A DNA stretch of 35,044 bases, taken from the NCBI GenBank assembly GCA_903847585.1, contig CAINEC010000196.1, forward strand, positions 1-35,044, read 5' to 3'. Numbering within the stretch: the first letter of the stretch is position 1; each line of letters begins with the position of its first letter. Shown here in pieces: positions 9,205 to 14,996 of the stretch. Source of the DNA: an uncultured Bacteroidota bacterium (GTDB taxonomy: Bacteria > Bacteroidota > Bacteroidia > AKYH767-A > OLB10). The notes under the pieces were generated by a model. It worked only from the letters and a program-made list of their open reading frames with translations. It was not told the DNA's origin and made no database searches. The position numbers and the translations under genes are program-made.

Positions 9205-9217
9205 CCATATGCTGGAA

Positions 9218-10873
9218 ATGAAAATATCACTTTCAAGGAGATCATTTTTAATGGTGTTACTTATAGTGACTTTTTTTTCTGATGCTTATAGTCAGTGTAT
9301 ATCGGCTTTTCCCTATAATCAGGACTTTGAATCTTCGAATGGAGGTTGGATCGTAGGTGGTTCAAACAGTGATTGGGCTTGGGGTACGCCAACCAAAGCA
9401 ACTATAAACTCAGCATCATCAGGAAGTAAGTGTTGGATAAGTGGTAATTTGTCCGGTAATTCTTATAACGGAGGACAAAAATCATATGTTGAGAGTCCTT
9501 GTTTTGATTTTACTTCTTTGACTAACCCTATAATTAAATTTTCAATTTTCTGGGATACAGAGAGGCAATACGATGGTGGTAGTTTTCAGTTTTCAATAAA
9601 CAATGGTCAGACTTGGTCAAATGTTGGAAATGCCAATGATCCATCCAATTGCTACAATAAGAACTGGTTCAATAGCTCAAATATTACTAATCTTGGAGGA
9701 CTCGCATCACCAACTCATGGTTGGTCGGGTAATTTGCAAAATAGTTCAGGTGGATGCCTCGGTGGTAATGGAAGTGGTCAGTGGGTTGAAGCCTCTCATT
9801 GTGTTGGGTTTTTAGGAGGGAATTCTACTGTTAAATTCCGATTTATATTTGGTTCTGGCACCACATGTAATAATTACGACGGAATTGCATTCGATGATTT
9901 TTTTGTTGGTGAAATTCTAGAGCCAGTTTATGATTTTCAATTTAATTGTACTGGAAATAATACCGTAGACTTTGCTGCAACATCAACAGATTGTCCTGCT
10001 TCTTACGCATGGAATTTTGATGACGTAAATTCATCCAGCAATACAGGTACAGGTGTTTCTGTTTCTCATGGCTTTTCAGCACCGGGTAGTTATGATGTAA
10101 GCTTGACATTAACATATCCTTGTATCGGTACACGTGTGATAAACAAACAAGTAATAATACCGGAATTAGTTGTTTCTACCTCGGATGTAACTTGTCTTGA
10201 CGATTCAAATGGTACGGCTATGGTGACCGTTAGTTTGGTTAGTAATCCAATTATTAAGTGGTTGCCGTCGGGAAGTTCAGGAAGTAGTATCGATAGTTTG
10301 TCGCCCGGACAATATTATGTAACTCTTATTGGTGCAACAGGTGTATGTGAATCAACAGTTCCATTTATAATTGGTGTTGGTCCCGATGCAGATCCTAAAG
10401 TTAATATTGGAGGATTGATAAAAGTTTGTCCTGGTGACGTCGTTAAATTGAATGCAGGAAATTTTGAAAAATATGTATGGAGTACGGGCGATACAACATC
10501 ATTTATCATTGTTTCAGATTCAGGTTATTATTCGGTATTTGTAGAAAATGCGGTGGGATGTGCTGCGAGTGATTCAGTTCAAATTGTAGTAGGTTGTGGA
10601 AATAATATTTGGTTTCCTTCTGCATTTACACCAGATGAGGACGGAGTTAATGATTTATTCTTGGGGTACGGAAATGATGTTAATGAATATCATCTTATCA
10701 TATTTAATCGAATGGGACAAATTGTATTCGATACGAAGGATATTTCAAAAGGGTGGGATGGAATGGTAGAGGGTTTACCCTCGCAAATTGGGGTTTACGG
10801 ATATACTGTGCGTTATAAATTTGATAATGCTGATAGTATCAGAAAAAGAGGTATTTTTACTTTAATAAGATAG
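9218..10873 (+). CDS. Large secreted surface protein: MAM-like and PKD-like domains with T9SS type B sorting domain
   Basis: About 551 residues. The signal peptide ends D-A-Y-S-Q. Residues about 30-230 form a jelly-roll module of the MAM/laminin-G-like kind (F-D-F-T-S-L, S-F-Q-F-S-I-N-N-G-Q-T-W, F-D-D-F-F-V-G). Residues about 235-315 are PKD-like (A-W-N-F-D-D ... F-S-A-P-G-S-Y-D-V). Two further Ig-like units follow, and the last 90 residues (P-S-A-F-T-P-D-E-D-G-V-N-D, F-N-R-M-G-Q-I-V-F, Y-G-Y-T-V-R-Y) are the gliding-associated CHU_C / type B T9SS signal. Such proteins are exported by T9SS and held at or shed from the surface, often as adhesins. The first MbnP-like gene starts three bases after its stop, so the two are very probably one transcript. 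The ATG at 9209 is an alternative start. Confidence 0.85.
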   Translation: MKISLSRRSFLMVLLIVTFFSDAYSQCISAFPYNQDFESSNGGWIVGGSNSDWAWGTPTKATINSASSGSKCWISGNLSGNSYNGGQKSYVESPCFDFTSLTNPIIKFSIFWDTERQYDGGSFQFSINNGQTWSNVGNANDPSNCYNKNWFNSSNITNLGGLASPTHGWSGNLQNSSGGCLGGNGSGQWVEASHCVGFLGGNSTVKFRFIFGSGTTCNNYDGIAFDDFFVGEILEPVYDFQFNCTGNNTVDFAATSTDCPASYAWNFDDVNSSSNTGTGVSVSHGFSAPGSYDVSLTLTYPCIGTRVINKQVIIPELVVSTSDVTCLDDSNGTAMVTVSLVSNPIIKWLPSGSSGSSIDSLSPGQYYVTLIGATGVCESTVPFIIGVGPDADPKVNIGGLIKVCPGDVVKLNAGNFEKYVWSTGDTTSFIIVSDSGYYSVFVENAVGCAASDSVQIVVGCGNNIWFPSAFTPDEDGVNDLFLGYGNDVNEYHLIIFNRMGQIVFDTKDISKGWDGMVEGLPSQIGVYGYTVRYKFDNADSIRKRGIFTLIR

Positions 10874-10876
10874 AAA

Positions 10877-11656
10877 ATGAAAAAGAAATTAATTTACGGA
10901 TTTGTGGCTCTGTTTGTAGCTTTATTTGTTTCATGTGATAAAGATGAAACACCGGATTCTAATGGAAATGCGAATCTTCCTGGAACGCTCAATGTTGAAT
11001 TTCTAAACAAGGTAGATAATCAGGATTTAGATATTACCGGCAACACTAATTACATTAACTCATTAGGTGAAGAGTTTTCGGTGAATGTCTTCAAGTATTA
11101 TATCACCAATATTCGATTAATTAAGCAAGATAGTTCAAGGTATTATCTTCCTGAGACATATTGGTTGGTTGATGCTGAAAAGCCGCTTTCATTATTGAAT
11201 AAGCTTAACAATGTTGCAGCGGGAAAATATATAGGAATGGAATTTATGATTGGAGTGGATAGTGCAACGCTTGCCAAGGGAGTGCAAGGTGGTGCACTTG
11301 ATCCGAGTAACGGGATGGTTTGGAGTTGGACAACAGGGTATATTTTTGTTAAAATGGAAGGCCGCTGTCCTACGGCAGGAACCGATAGTCTGTTTCAATA
11401 TCATATTAGTGGCTATCATGATTACGACGGCACTAACTCATTAAGATGGTCAACTGTTTATTTTAATGGCCAAACAATCGATGTGAATAAGTCTGTAAAT
11501 ACCAAGGTTCAAATCAAAACAGATGTGCAGGAATTCTTTAAAAATCCAAGTGATTGGAGCATTTCAGACTCACCAGTTGTTGCGTCGCCTGGTCATTTAC
11601 CTCCAATCATTGCCGACAATTATAAGGACATGTTTTCGTTCATTCGTGTTAATTAG
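10877..11656 (+). CDS. MbnP-family lipoprotein 1 (kynurenine-type copper-binding family)
   Basis: 259 residues. A lipoprotein signal ends at C20 and is followed by D-K-D-E, the acidic export signal that sends Bacteroidota lipoproteins to the cell surface. The MbnP fold is seen from about 36 on: F-K-Y-Y-I-T-N-I-R-L-I, then G-G-A-L-D-P-S-N-G-M-V-W149-S-W151, G-Y-I-F-V-K-M-E-G and Y-H176-I-S-G-Y. In methanotroph MbnP the first Trp of WxW is oxidised to kynurenine by MbnH, and a His and a Met help bind Cu(I). The WxW, M147 and H176 are all present here; which Met is the ligand I cannot say. C-terminally D-M-F-S-F is kept but the H-x-H tail of the second paralogue is missing. Cotranscribed with the T9SS type B gene. 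Family call firm; copper role inferred. Confidence 0.85.
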   Translation: MKKKLIYGFVALFVALFVSCDKDETPDSNGNANLPGTLNVEFLNKVDNQDLDITGNTNYINSLGEEFSVNVFKYYITNIRLIKQDSSRYYLPETYWLVDAEKPLSLLNKLNNVAAGKYIGMEFMIGVDSATLAKGVQGGALDPSNGMVWSWTTGYIFVKMEGRCPTAGTDSLFQYHISGYHDYDGTNSLRWSTVYFNGQTIDVNKSVNTKVQIKTDVQEFFKNPSDWSISDSPVVASPGHLPPIIADNYKDMFSFIRVN

Positions 11657-11667
11657 AATTGTTTGAT

Positions 11668-11691
11668 AAATGTCATAAAAACATTTTTTTT
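11668..11691 (+). terminator. Weak terminator after MbnP-like gene 1
   Basis: Arms AAATGT (11668-11673) and ACATTT (11681-11686) around a seven-base loop, followed by a T run to 11691. The stem is short and AT-rich, so read-through is likely. It is placed between the first MbnP-like gene and the promoter of the next unit. Confidence 0.4.
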
Positions 11692-11697
11692 GGAATA

Positions 11698-11729
11698 TTG
11701 TAATTAGTACTGCGTTAATGATATATTTG
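11698..11729 (+). promoter_or_regulatory. Promoter of the small Cys-rich protein / MbnP 2 unit
   Basis: TTG at 11698-11700, exactly 21 nt, then TATATTTG at 11722-11729. It lies 13 nt before the ATG at 11743 and is one of the best matches in the window, so this block has a transcription start separate from the type B/MbnP 1 operon. Confidence 0.7.
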
Positions 11730-11742
11730 TAATCCAAAGCAT

Positions 11743-12114
11743 ATGCATTTAATCAAAAGAATCCTTATTGTAACACTCACTTTCGCCGTTTTTTTATCGG
11801 GCGCTAGTAAGACTTTGTTGTTGCTGGATTTTTTTGTTAGTCGAGACTATATTGCCAATAATATTTGTGAAAAAAAGGATACAAAAGATAATTGCTGTAG
11901 AGGTTATTGTCATTTGACAAAGCAAATGAAGCAGGATGAAAAGCGTGAACCTTCAAATGCAATCAATGATTTAAAGACAGAGATTGCTTCCACTACATTA
12001 GAATTAATTGATTTAAAGTTTTATTTCTTTTTTATTCAAAGGTTAAATGATCTTGAAATGATTCCTTTGAGCATTGGTTTTTTAAATAGGGAGTATCAGC
12101 CGCCTTGGGTATAA
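11743..12114 (+). CDS. Small exported Cys-rich protein of metal-uptake neighbourhoods
   Basis: 123 residues. A hydrophobic N-terminal helix (about 4-28) is a signal peptide or anchor. It is followed by D-Y-I-A-N-N-I-C42, then N-C51-C52-R-G-Y-C56-H57-L-T-K-Q. From memory, short Bacteroidota proteins with the pattern Y-I-x-K-x-L-C ... C-x-G-K-C-Y/H-L-x-K-x-L recur beside TonB receptors and copper genes; this protein fits that pattern, and its end (Q-P-P-W-V) also has the di-proline seen there. The cysteines and H57 make a metal site likely. It has its own good promoter and lies 56 bases before MbnP-like gene 2, so it probably leads that transcript. No enzyme motif. Family resemblance fairly sure, role unknown. 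Confidence 0.65.
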   Translation: MHLIKRILIVTLTFAVFLSGASKTLLLLDFFVSRDYIANNICEKKDTKDNCCRGYCHLTKQMKQDEKREPSNAINDLKTEIASTTLELIDLKFYFFFIQRLNDLEMIPLSIGFLNREYQPPWV

Positions 12115-12170
12115 ATGATATTTTTTTAAACTTTTAATTCCCTTTAATAATCAATAAAAAAAACAATCAA

Positions 12171-12968
12171 ATGAAAAATAAATTATATTCTTTGTTCATG
12201 ATTGCATTTGTTGCAATCGCAGTTTCTTCATGCAATGATGATGAAACAACACCATCAACTAATAACGGACCTACTACATACAATTCAGGTGATGTGGAGC
12301 TTAATTTTGAAAATATTGCAGGTAGTGTTTTCTTGGATCCAACAGGAGCCACAAACTATGTGAATGCTTCTGGAGAGACATTCTCTGTAACCAACTTTAG
12401 ATATTATATTTCCAATGTTAAACTTATTAAAGAAGATGGAAGTAAATATGAAGTTCCCAATTCATATTTTTTAATCAATGCGAATGATACGAATTCATTA
12501 TTAGCAGAGTTGACTGACATTCCAGGAGGTAAGTATACTGGTGTCGAATACATGATAGGTGTTGATAGCGCTCGTAATGTTTCTGGAGCTCAAACAGGTG
12601 CTTTAGATCCAGCTAATGGAATGTTTTGGAGTTGGTCAAGCGGATATATTTTCATGAAGTTAGAAGGACAATCATCTGCATCATCGAACAATTCTTTTGT
12701 ATACCATATTGGTGGATATTCTGGAGTAAACAGAGGTCAAAGAACCGTTTCTCTTGACTTTACCCCTTCAGTTGTAATAGTTGATGGTGGTAAGCGTGAG
12801 GCTGAAATTCACATCACAACAGATGTTTTAGAAATCTTTAAAAATCCAAACAATATTTCAATTGCAACTCAATCTACTATTATGAGTGTTGGTGCTGCTT
12901 CTTCTAATATTGCAACTAATTATGCGGATATGTTCTCGTTTGACCATATTCATAATGATCCACTTTAA
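12171..12968 (+). CDS. MbnP-family lipoprotein 2 (kynurenine-type copper-binding family)
   Basis: 265 residues. Lipobox V-S-S-C21 is followed by N-D-D-E, an acidic surface-export signal. The domain runs from about 41: F-R-Y-Y-I-S-N-V-K-L-I, G-A-L-D-P-A-N-G-M151-F-W153-S-W155-S-S-G-Y, F-M-K-L-E-G, Y-H179-I-G-G-Y, and at the end Y-A-D-M254-F-S-F-D-H259-I-H261. This is the full pattern expected of MbnP proteins in this phylum. W153 is the predicted site of Trp-to-kynurenine conversion by the MbnH-like enzyme encoded next; H179 and a Met are the likely copper ligands. It is a diverged relative of MbnP 1, not a recent duplicate: the stretch after the conserved His is quite different. A terminator follows directly. 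Family call firm; copper binding inferred. Confidence 0.88.
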   Translation: MKNKLYSLFMIAFVAIAVSSCNDDETTPSTNNGPTTYNSGDVELNFENIAGSVFLDPTGATNYVNASGETFSVTNFRYYISNVKLIKEDGSKYEVPNSYFLINANDTNSLLAELTDIPGGKYTGVEYMIGVDSARNVSGAQTGALDPANGMFWSWSSGYIFMKLEGQSSASSNNSFVYHIGGYSGVNRGQRTVSLDFTPSVVIVDGGKREAEIHITTDVLEIFKNPNNISIATQSTIMSVGAASSNIATNYADMFSFDHIHNDPL

Positions 12969-12980
12969 AAACAAAATTAA

Positions 12981-13016
12981 ACCTGCGGATGTTAAATAAA
13001 TATCCGCAGGTTTTTT
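12981..13016 (+). terminator. Terminator between MbnP 2 and the MbnH-like gene
   Basis: Perfect nine-base arms CCTGCGGAT (12982-12990) and ATCCGCAGG (13002-13010), plus an A-T closing pair, an 11-base loop and six T. The ATG of the MbnH-like gene follows four bases after the T run, so that gene is reached by read-through or by RNA starting inside MbnP 2. Confidence 0.85.
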
Positions 13017-13020
13017 ATAA

Positions 13021-14052
13021 ATGAAAGTAAATCTGAAATATAAATTGTTGTTATTGCTATCAATGGTCGTGATAGTACATTCTTGTGTACCCGATGTTGA
13101 CCCTCCAGTAACTCAACCATTGTTTTATCAGCCTGAAGGATTCCCAGCTACCTCTGGTCAGTTAGCGAATAATCCTGTCACCTATTATGGATTCAGTCTT
13201 GGAAAGAAATTGTTCTATGATCCAATTTTATCTTTAGATAGCACTATTTCTTGTGGCAGTTGTCACCAGCAATTTGCTGCCTTCGCACATTTAGATCATA
13301 AGCTTAGTCATGGCATTAATGATTTGGAGGGAACTCGAAACGCTCCCCCTTTATTTAATCTTGCTTGGCATTCTAACTTCTTTTGGGATGGTGGTTCAAA
13401 TCATATAGAAGTACAGCCGATTGCTCCAATTACAAATCCTGTTGAGATGGATGAAAGCGTAGCTAATGTCATATTTAAACTCAAACGGTCATCATATTAT
13501 CCTGCAATGTTTAAAAAGGCTTTTGGTAGCGATTCAATCACCACTCAAGCCATGACAAGAGCATTAGCTCAGTTTATGTCCTCCTTAATCTCTGCTAATT
13601 CAAAATACGATAAGGTAAAAGCTGGGTCAGCTACCTTCACAGTTGATGAGCAAAACGGATATATGTTATTCAAATCAAAATGTGAAAGTTGTCATAAAGA
13701 ACCATTAATGACTGATTTGAGTTATCGTAATAACGGACTTGATTTGCATTTTGCTGCAGATCCAGGGCGAGCACGAATTACACTTCAACCAAGTGATTCA
13801 GGCAAGTTTAAAGTACCATCATTGAGAAATATTGCGGTCTCATACCCATATATGCACGATGGTAGATTAAATTCATTAAGCAAGGTAATAGATCATTATA
13901 GGTCTGGGGTAATTCAAAGTAGTACAATTGATCCTTTATTATCGGGTGGTAATATGTCGATTACTGATGCGGAAAAACAACAATTAATACTTTTCTTAAA
14001 TACACTTACAGATCCTACTTTCCTAAACGATAAACGATTTAGCGAAAAGTAA
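13021..14052 (+). CDS. MbnH-like diheme lipoprotein (bacterial cytochrome c peroxidase/MauG superfamily)
   Basis: 343 residues. The signal ends at C22 (V-H-S-C-V-P-D), so it is a lipoprotein. Two c-heme sites are seen: C78-G-S-C81-H82 and C221-E-S-C224-H225. Between them are R-N-A-P-P-L-F-N (106-113), F-W122-D-G-G-S and N-P-V-E-M, all usual in the superfamily; W122 is at the place where MauG-type proteins carry electrons between hemes. After heme 2, V-P-S-L-R-N-I-A-V-S-Y-P-Y-M-H-D-G-R is the C-terminal signature, and D-H-Y293-R-S-G lies where a classical peroxidase has its Met heme ligand and MauG a Tyr. MbnH oxidises the first Trp of MbnP's WxW to kynurenine with peroxide. Adjacency to an MbnP gene supports that over plain peroxide removal. 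It ends two bases before the barrel gene. Confidence 0.85.
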   Translation: MKVNLKYKLLLLLSMVVIVHSCVPDVDPPVTQPLFYQPEGFPATSGQLANNPVTYYGFSLGKKLFYDPILSLDSTISCGSCHQQFAAFAHLDHKLSHGINDLEGTRNAPPLFNLAWHSNFFWDGGSNHIEVQPIAPITNPVEMDESVANVIFKLKRSSYYPAMFKKAFGSDSITTQAMTRALAQFMSSLISANSKYDKVKAGSATFTVDEQNGYMLFKSKCESCHKEPLMTDLSYRNNGLDLHFAADPGRARITLQPSDSGKFKVPSLRNIAVSYPYMHDGRLNSLSKVIDHYRSGVIQSSTIDPLLSGGNMSITDAEKQQLILFLNTLTDPTFLNDKRFSEK

Positions 14053-14054
14053 AA

Positions 14055-14996
14055 ATGAAAAAATATAATTTGATGTTGGGTTTGTTATTCTTGACATCTG
14101 TTGGTTCCATCGCTTGTGATGTATGCGGTGGGATGGTTGGTATTTTGCCAAATGAAAACAAGCACTCTGTGTCATTGTTTTACCGTTACAGAGCTTTTAA
14201 AAACGAATATTTTAATGGTAATAACTGGTTTCCAGATGGTGGATTACTTCGTACGGAGCATTCGTCAGATGCTGTTGCCGGTGTCCCTTCTTATGAAGTT
14301 TTCAGAGTGGCTGAATTAAGAGGGCGGTTGATGTTTCATAAAAAATGGGACTTGATTATTAATTTGCCGTACACGCAAAATAAAGAAAGTGTAGGCGATG
14401 AAGTGGAGTCCATAAGTGGTATAGGTGATATGTCTTTTTTTGCCAATCGTTATTGGTCTAACTCGCACAAAAAAACGCAATTAAATTATCGGTTTTCGGC
14501 TGGATTTGGTTTCAAGCTTCCTTCAGGGAAAAATAATAATCTCAATAATAAAGGTCAAAGGATAAGCTTGTATAATCAGGCGGGAACAGGTTCGTTAGAC
14601 TACTTAGTTCTAGGTAATATCATGCTAGGCTATAAACGTTGGGGTTTAACAGTTAATAGCCTCTTCCGTATTAATAATTACAATCTCTTTAATGAAAGGA
14701 TTGGTCCAATTGCAAGTGCAAGTGCATCGTTGTTTAGAAAAATTAAAGTGAACGATGAATTGTTAGTCGCCATATCAATTAATACAGCCTATGAACATAC
14801 TCGTGGAATACAAATAGGAAAGAATTGGCAAAAAGACACTTCAATGAAGTTGATCTCTTGCGGTTCAGGCTTACAGATAATATGGAAAAATATTTCATTT
14901 GAATCGCAAGTTTTACTTCCAGCATATGAGCCTAAAGAATATAACTCTCAAATGTCGATGGTGCGATTTGTTTCAGGTTTTGTATTTAATATATAG
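14055..14996 (+). CDS. Outer-membrane beta-barrel protein with N-terminal CxxC, in the MbnP/MbnH block
   Basis: 313 residues. The signal peptide ends at about A20 and the mature chain begins C21-D-V-C24-G-G-M. Long amphipathic strands then alternate with loops through to the end, F-V-S-G-F-V-F-N-I, so it is a barrel of about 12 strands. I recall Bacteroidota barrels that start C-D-x-C-G, seen beside MbnP/MbnH pairs, but no function is established. A Cys pair at the periplasmic end of a barrel would suit Cu(I) or thiol chemistry; C21 could instead be lipidated. It begins two bases after the MbnH-like stop, so the two are translated from one message. It may be the outer-membrane exit or entry route for the system's metal, which is inference. 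Confidence 0.65.
   Translation: MKKYNLMLGLLFLTSVGSIACDVCGGMVGILPNENKHSVSLFYRYRAFKNEYFNGNNWFPDGGLLRTEHSSDAVAGVPSYEVFRVAELRGRLMFHKKWDLIINLPYTQNKESVGDEVESISGIGDMSFFANRYWSNSHKKTQLNYRFSAGFGFKLPSGKNNNLNNKGQRISLYNQAGTGSLDYLVLGNIMLGYKRWGLTVNSLFRINNYNLFNERIGPIASASASLFRKIKVNDELLVAISINTAYEHTRGIQIGKNWQKDTSMKLISCGSGLQIIWKNISFESQVLLPAYEPKEYNSQMSMVRFVSGFVFNI

Follow-up and report, generated by a model that had tools for sequence, protein, structure and literature searches.

A putative kynurenine-assisted copper-capture operon of Bacteroidota under a candidate copper-sensing leader

A block of five genes in the genome of an uncultured Bacteroidota bacterium is, with fair probability, a kynurenine-assisted copper-capture operon under a copper-sensing leader. 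The block lies in a stretch of 35,044 nucleotides (nt) (contig CAINEC010000196.1 of assembly GCA_903847585.1; the window hereafter) and consists of five co-directional open reading frames (ORFs) on the + strand, which are separated by gaps of 86, 56, 52 and 2 nt. The two MbnP-family proteins, the MbnH-like enzyme, the barrel and the small Cys-rich ORF that we propose as the leader are listed below with the evidence used for each. Gene content, fold, conserved residues, leader position and motif geometry were computed directly.

10877..11656, + strand: MbnP paralogue 1 (P1), 259 amino acids (aa), predicted lipoprotein (PF20243 match, alignments, tree)
11743..12114, + strand: leader ORF, 123 aa, proposed nascent-chain copper sensor (family alignment, neighbourhoods, spacing)
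12171..12968, + strand: MbnP paralogue 2 (P2), 265 aa, predicted lipoprotein (PF20243 match, structure model)
13021..14052, + strand: MbnH-like di-heme enzyme, 343 aa, predicted lipoprotein (PF03150, TIGR04039, alignment to 6e1c)
14055..14996, + strand: outer-membrane barrel, 313 aa, N-terminal C21-D-V-C24 (structure model, 27 homologues)

MbnP paralogues and their site residues

The sequence-only reading of this DNA had proposed two MbnP lipoproteins with W-S-W motifs at W149 and W153. Both the ORF coordinates and the Pfam MbnP family PF20243 bear this out, with scores of 160 bits for P1 and 198 bits for P2 at a cut-off of 27. P1 carries a lipoprotein Cys (C20) followed by D-K-D-E, and its site residues are M147, W149-S-W151 and the His of YHISG, while P2 carries C21 followed by N-D-D-E, with M151, W153-S-W155 and H179 as the site residues. 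W153, W155 and G158 of P2 were invariant in a sequence alignment of 43 homologues, and M151 and H179 were conserved in at least 90% of them.

A structure prediction to be compared with the MbnP crystal structure had also been suggested. An AlphaFold2 model of P2 was built from 43 aligned sequences (predicted local distance difference test, pLDDT, 86.5), and the fold result refers to P2 alone. The sole PDB fold match of this model was MbnP 7l6g (Foldseek E 2.4e-9; next match 0.03), and the structural comparison gave a Z score of 18.4 over 210 residues, the next-best Z being 4.9. Neither P1 nor the MbnP profile retrieved the solved MbnP in PDB sequence searches; it was reached only by the fold search and by one relative. 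HWDW and YHIG of a related MbnP align with GMAWNW and VHVG of the solved protein.

Among 148 distinct MbnPs adjoining an MbnH, the first Trp was kept in all 148, the His in 145 and the Met in 142, while the second Trp position held Trp in 136 and Met in 11; a pattern containing MxWxW retrieved part of this set, which inflates the Trp and Met counts of the loci concerned. The set for the order was fetched by Pfam instead, free of MxWxW selection, and gave the same conservation trend. Three MbnPs that have lost both the second Trp and the site His (L103, L104, L108) have no MbnH seen beside them, the L103 locus being cut by the contig end. In a tree, P1 and P2 fall into separate old clades, and a recent origin of P1 by copying of P2 was rejected on that ground. 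The closest relatives of P1 in two congeners sit after the barrel gene, so P1 has changed its place in one of the lineages.

Two further MbnP arrangements were observed. In a variant group, W-x-M and GGGYHF replace WxW while MbnH still adjoins (L088, L092, L093, L095, L096, L098-L102, L106), and several of these loci lie near nitric oxide reductase-like and tryptophanase-like genes; these variants possibly form a Kyn/Met/His copper site. At L089 an MbnP with W-D-W adjoins a choice-of-anchor B protein (TIGR04312), and at L058 another MbnP with W-D-W adjoins a protein of the same cluster; neither locus has an adjacent MbnH.

The MbnH-like enzyme

One di-heme MbnH-like lipoprotein had been placed at 13021-14052, and the assignment held. 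The ORF matches CCP_MauG PF03150 at 180 bits and has CxxCH at residues 78-82 and again at 221-225; all 39 homologues compared keep the Cys and His of both motifs. The solved MbnH 6e1c aligns with it over residues 49-342. Tyr293, invariant in 39 relatives, aligns with a Tyr of MbnH 6e1c and with a Met of the Shewanella peroxidase 3o5c, and the enzyme thus combines two CxxCH motifs with a Tyr replacing the peroxidase axial Met, as is typical of MbnH and MauG. In MauG, a Tyr in place of the axial Met accompanies Trp oxidation, and MbnH is said by Manesis et al. (2021) to form kynurenine at the first Trp of MbnP.

Alternatively, the MbnH-like protein might simply remove H2O2 as an ordinary bacterial cytochrome c peroxidase, and the MbnP-like proteins might keep their Trp unmodified and serve as structural lipoproteins or bind metal in another way. 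The top-scoring single PDB match is a di-heme peroxidase (1iqc), and the scores fall short of the NCBIfam cut-offs for MbnH and MauG, with 180.4 bits for the MauG profile (TIGR03791, cut-off 443.85 bits). However, the invariant Tyr293 replaces the peroxidase axial Met, the gene strictly adjoins MbnP, and the first Trp is kept in 148 of 148 MbnPs; we regard a plain peroxidase as quite improbable. Because of the MbnP fold, the kept Trp, His and Met, and the MauG-type Tyr in MbnH, conversion of Trp to kynurenine giving Cu(I) sites in the MbnPs is likely, as read from sequence and model. In this part the kynurenine-type interpretation of the sequence-only reading is well supported. That one MbnH serves both lipoproteins, as had also been supposed, is plausible but unproven, given the second MbnH elsewhere in the genome.

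The barrel and other operon partners

The barrel was modelled with a pLDDT of 79.6, and its nearest folds are FapF and the COG4313 channels. C21 and C24, just after the signal sequence, are invariant in 27 homologues, and this Cys pair would lie on the periplasmic side; the barrel may have a part in copper passage. The last gene in many of these operons encodes a small lipoprotein, about 135 aa long, in which a His-His motif (QHHG or KHHS) is conserved. It is represented by L082:6185-6586 and relatives in L055, L060, L066, L068, L076 and L079, and it has no Pfam family above cut-off.

The leader ORF family

The sequence-only reading had named the small Cys-rich ORF merely as a neighbour and had not recognised the probable leader in it. 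The ORF has an N-terminal hydrophobic segment (read by eye), the motif C42-x9-C52-R-G-Y-C56, an unconserved linker, and a Pro-Pro pair (PP), P120-P121, two residues before the stop. The family alignment gives the motif as C-x9-C-x-G-x-C with three invariant Cys, and relatives were present in 119 of 296 sampled Bacteroidota genomes. We compared the 123 distinct members in which a Cys motif could be recognised and PP stood close to the end. The distance from CxGxC to PP was 61-73 residues (mean 66.5, standard deviation 2.4) while the linker was hardly conserved, and PP lay 1-5 residues from the C-terminal end in 118 of the 123. Before the motif and PP filter, the first leader set had PP within the last 20 residues in 79 of 79 members; as a control, only 6 of 1474 other proteins of the same regions had PP in the last five residues.

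The rules published for CutF-like proteins (PMC9973294) are a length below 150 aa, PP in the last 15 residues, a same-strand downstream gene within 1000 nt and an N-terminal signal peptide. On the first three of these rules the leader ORF falls within the set, with 123 aa, PP two residues from the end and a gap of 56 nt to the same-strand gene; for the signal peptide, it has the hydrophobic N-terminal segment read by eye. When a stem-loop was sought by eye in the 56-nt gap between leader and P2, only A/T-rich sequence was seen, and the stem-loop version of CutF is therefore not favoured here. Another Cys/PP family, HYC_CC_PP (NF047658), had no match in the genome.

The next gene shared the leader's strand in 57 of 61 cases and encoded a TonB receptor (25), an MbnP (11), a YtkA-like lipoprotein (6, usually then a TonB receptor) or a barrel (5). 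The leader thus heads two operon types, MbnP-MbnH-barrel or TonB-receptor(-PepSY), and several of the leader-associated TonB receptors are followed by PepSY_TM genes. A leader was present upstream within 2.6 kb for 41 of 100 MbnP genes in the phylum sample. At the genome level, MbnP occurred with the leader in 56 genomes and alone in 21 (odds ratio 6.6, Fisher P 2e-11, uncorrected for relatedness). The order leader-MbnP-MbnH-barrel was also found in Pedobacter, Dyadobacter, Hymenobacter and others, among them the culturable Dyadobacter fermentans (L282) and Pedobacter psychrotolerans (L247). Two Dyadobacter loci (L294, L295) carry tandem double leader-MbnP-MbnH cassettes, in which the second MbnP has W-M-W.

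DUF2946 proteins are rare in Bacteroidota (8 of 296 genomes), but L214 has such a protein in the leader slot ahead of MbnP-MbnH, and L211 and L213 each have one ahead of a TonB receptor. This bears on whether the Cys-rich ORF might instead do its work once fully made, as a copper chaperone or a copper-binding protein of the membrane. Three invariant Cys in a metal-binding-like arrangement and a hydrophobic N-terminus would suit such a protein. However, its C-terminal half is unconserved yet constant in length and PP abuts the stop; the gene stands in front, often with its own promoter-like element, of two unrelated operon types, and DUF2946 fills the same slot. We consider a chaperone somewhat unlikely. 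By analogy, the leader is probably a CutF/CruR-like copper-sensing ORF acting during translation.

A promoter-like element before the leader

11698..11729, + strand: promoter-like site, with TTG at 11698-11700, a 21-nt spacer and TATATTTG at 11722-11729 (Bacteroidota -7 type; from the sequence)

The TATATTTG element ends 13 nt before the leader ATG. TAnnTTTG was found upstream of 45 of 78 leader genes, while shuffled sequences gave a mean of 7.3 and a maximum of 15, and most of the elements lay 4-20 nt before the start. Within 30 nt upstream, it was present for 118 of 1121 other ORFs and for none of 30 barrel genes. In a sigma-70 scan, sites were no more frequent than chance.

The gene at 9209-10873 of the window encodes a PKD protein of type IX secretion system (T9SS) type B, ends 3 nt before P1 and is a genus-wide neighbour of P1; it is possibly a surface partner of P1. 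Because P1 begins 3 nt after this gene and the promoter-like element lies just before the leader, P1 and P2-MbnH-barrel may be transcribed separately, P1 perhaps together with 9209-10873.

Genome context and prevalence

The source genome (2.99 Mb, 99% complete) contains a second MbnP-MbnH pair on another contig (C31, locus L007), bringing the totals to 3 MbnP and 2 MbnH. At L007:7874-10983, this pair, whose MbnP has W-T-W and is without a lipid-anchor Cys, is followed by a YHYH-domain (PF14240) T9SS protein, and a cluster of 12 YHYH-domain T9SS-type genes adjoins MbnP-MbnH in many loci of the order. The absence of methanobactin genes near the block had been claimed from the window; in a profile search, MbnB (PF05114) was absent from the whole genome, and a methanobactin locus was thus rejected.

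MbnP was found in 39 of 42 genomes of this order and in 77 of 296 sampled Bacteroidota genomes, and according to Kenney and Rosenzweig (2013, PMC3621798) conservation of the MbnP/MbnH pair extends far outside the organisms that make methanobactin. Since the pair is published and widespread, it is ordinary for the phylum and not itself new, and the label of an undescribed copper-handling system does not hold for it; the label apparently holds for the leader and its coupling to MbnP/MbnH. This coupling appears undescribed: the link was not found in the literature examined, and the main text with the CutF-like list (PMC9973294) does not contain MbnP. As that list includes Bacteroidota proteins, the leader family may already be in it. 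Other Bacteroidota upstream ORFs have been reported with C-terminal Pro motifs (PMC10987492).

Proposed mechanism

We propose that the MbnH-like enzyme, using its two hemes in the style of MauG, would make kynurenine from the Trp that opens W-S-W in each MbnP lipoprotein. The kynurenine would complete a Cu(I) site to which the conserved His, and probably also the Met two positions ahead of this Trp, would contribute. Copper would be captured by these lipoproteins on the surface of the cell; the barrel, with its periplasmic N-terminal Cys pair, would help to pass copper inward or release it. The small ORF in front (11743-12114) would govern expression of the operon: copper would bind C-x9-C-x-G-x-C of the exported leader chain during synthesis, and the copper-bound leader would alter ribosome passage of PP at the stop codon, which would decide expression of the downstream genes. 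Kynurenine, copper binding, the direction of copper movement and the sign of regulation are what we infer here.

Several points weigh against this proposal. The NCBIfam equivalog profiles were not reached, with 39 and 62 bits for TIGR04052 (MbnP; cut-off 140 bits) and 218.8 bits for TIGR04039 (MbnH; cut-off 362.85 bits), and the four-Cys motif after which the Methylosinus MbnP family (TIGR04052) is named is absent, P1 having two Cys and P2 one, including the lipid-anchor Cys. For the leader, the spacing from Cys to PP is about 20 residues longer than in CutF and CruR, and homology to DUF2946 was rejected, with no PF11162 match at E 10 and only PP aligned by hhalign; the DUF2946 copy in L214 is itself without a full CxxC. 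With the MbnP gene P1 upstream of it, the leader does not strictly open the block, and about 40% of leaders are without a clear TAnnTTTG. No experiment on any Bacteroidota member was found in the literature.

The system could also detoxify or store copper instead of acquiring it. The operon in which CutF works, together with the multicopper oxidase CutO, serves copper detoxification (PMC9973294), and the general channels nearest to the barrel are uninformative on direction. Against this, TonB receptors are machines for import, and this leader stands in front of them too; copper represses cruR-bfrG of Bordetella, for which an import role is predicted (PMC9426467), and it also represses the kynurenine-type proteins CorA and MopE (PMC3912023). 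Detoxification or storage seems unlikely.

More broadly, it is possible, at slightly less than even chances, that a large family of copper sensors acting as nascent chains arose in Bacteroidota independently of DUF2946, and that one copper signal governs both TonB-receptor uptake and kynurenine-based capture. Copper uptake in Bacteroidota is little known despite their many copper enzymes. If the proposal is true, the leader would be a sequence tag for copper-responsive operons in about 40% of sampled Bacteroidota genomes, many uncharacterised TonB receptors would be predicted to carry copper, and conversion of Trp to kynurenine would be a routine surface modification in Bacteroidota, not a methanotroph speciality.

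Comparison with known systems

The proteins share with MbnP (7l6g) and MbnH (6e1c) of Methylosinus trichosporium OB3b the MbnP fold, WxW, the Met two before the first Trp, the His of HxG, and an adjacent di-heme enzyme with Tyr for the axial Met, at 13-18% sequence identity in the structural alignment. Unlike in OB3b, the present locus has no methanobactin genes and no four-Cys motif, encodes lipoproteins with two paralogues at one locus, and has other operon partners. CorA/CorB of Methylomicrobium album and MopE/SACCP of Methylococcus likewise pair a surface Cu(I) site assisted by kynurenine with a neighbouring homologue of di-heme peroxidases (PMC3912023), but their motif is W-x-H with a second His, and MbnP sequences were reported to be without marked similarity to CorA or MopE (PMC3621798). 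With MauG of methylamine dehydrogenase tryptophan tryptophylquinone (TTQ) biosynthesis, the MbnH-like enzyme shares the di-heme superfamily, the Tyr at the axial position and proposed Trp oxidation of a partner protein, whereas it scores below the TIGR03791 cut-off, lacks a methylamine dehydrogenase partner and has another substrate motif.

The leader family resembles the DUF2946 proteins CruR (Bordetella pertussis) and CutF (Rhodobacter capsulatus) in small size, a Cys motif, PP close to the stop codon and operon-first position, and its hydrophobic N-terminus may correspond to their export signal. It differs from CruR and CutF, which have CxxC/CxxxC with about 45 residues to PP, in its C-x9-C-x-G-x-C motif with 61-73 residues to PP and in the downstream MbnP/MbnH. 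For CutF and CruR, experiments show that the Cys and proline motifs are needed for copper control of the downstream gene, via stalling-like translation events (PMC9973294, PMC9426467), and the gene order cruR-bfrG-bp2921 of B. pertussis (PMC9426467) equals the leader-TonB receptor-PepSY order in Bacteroidota.

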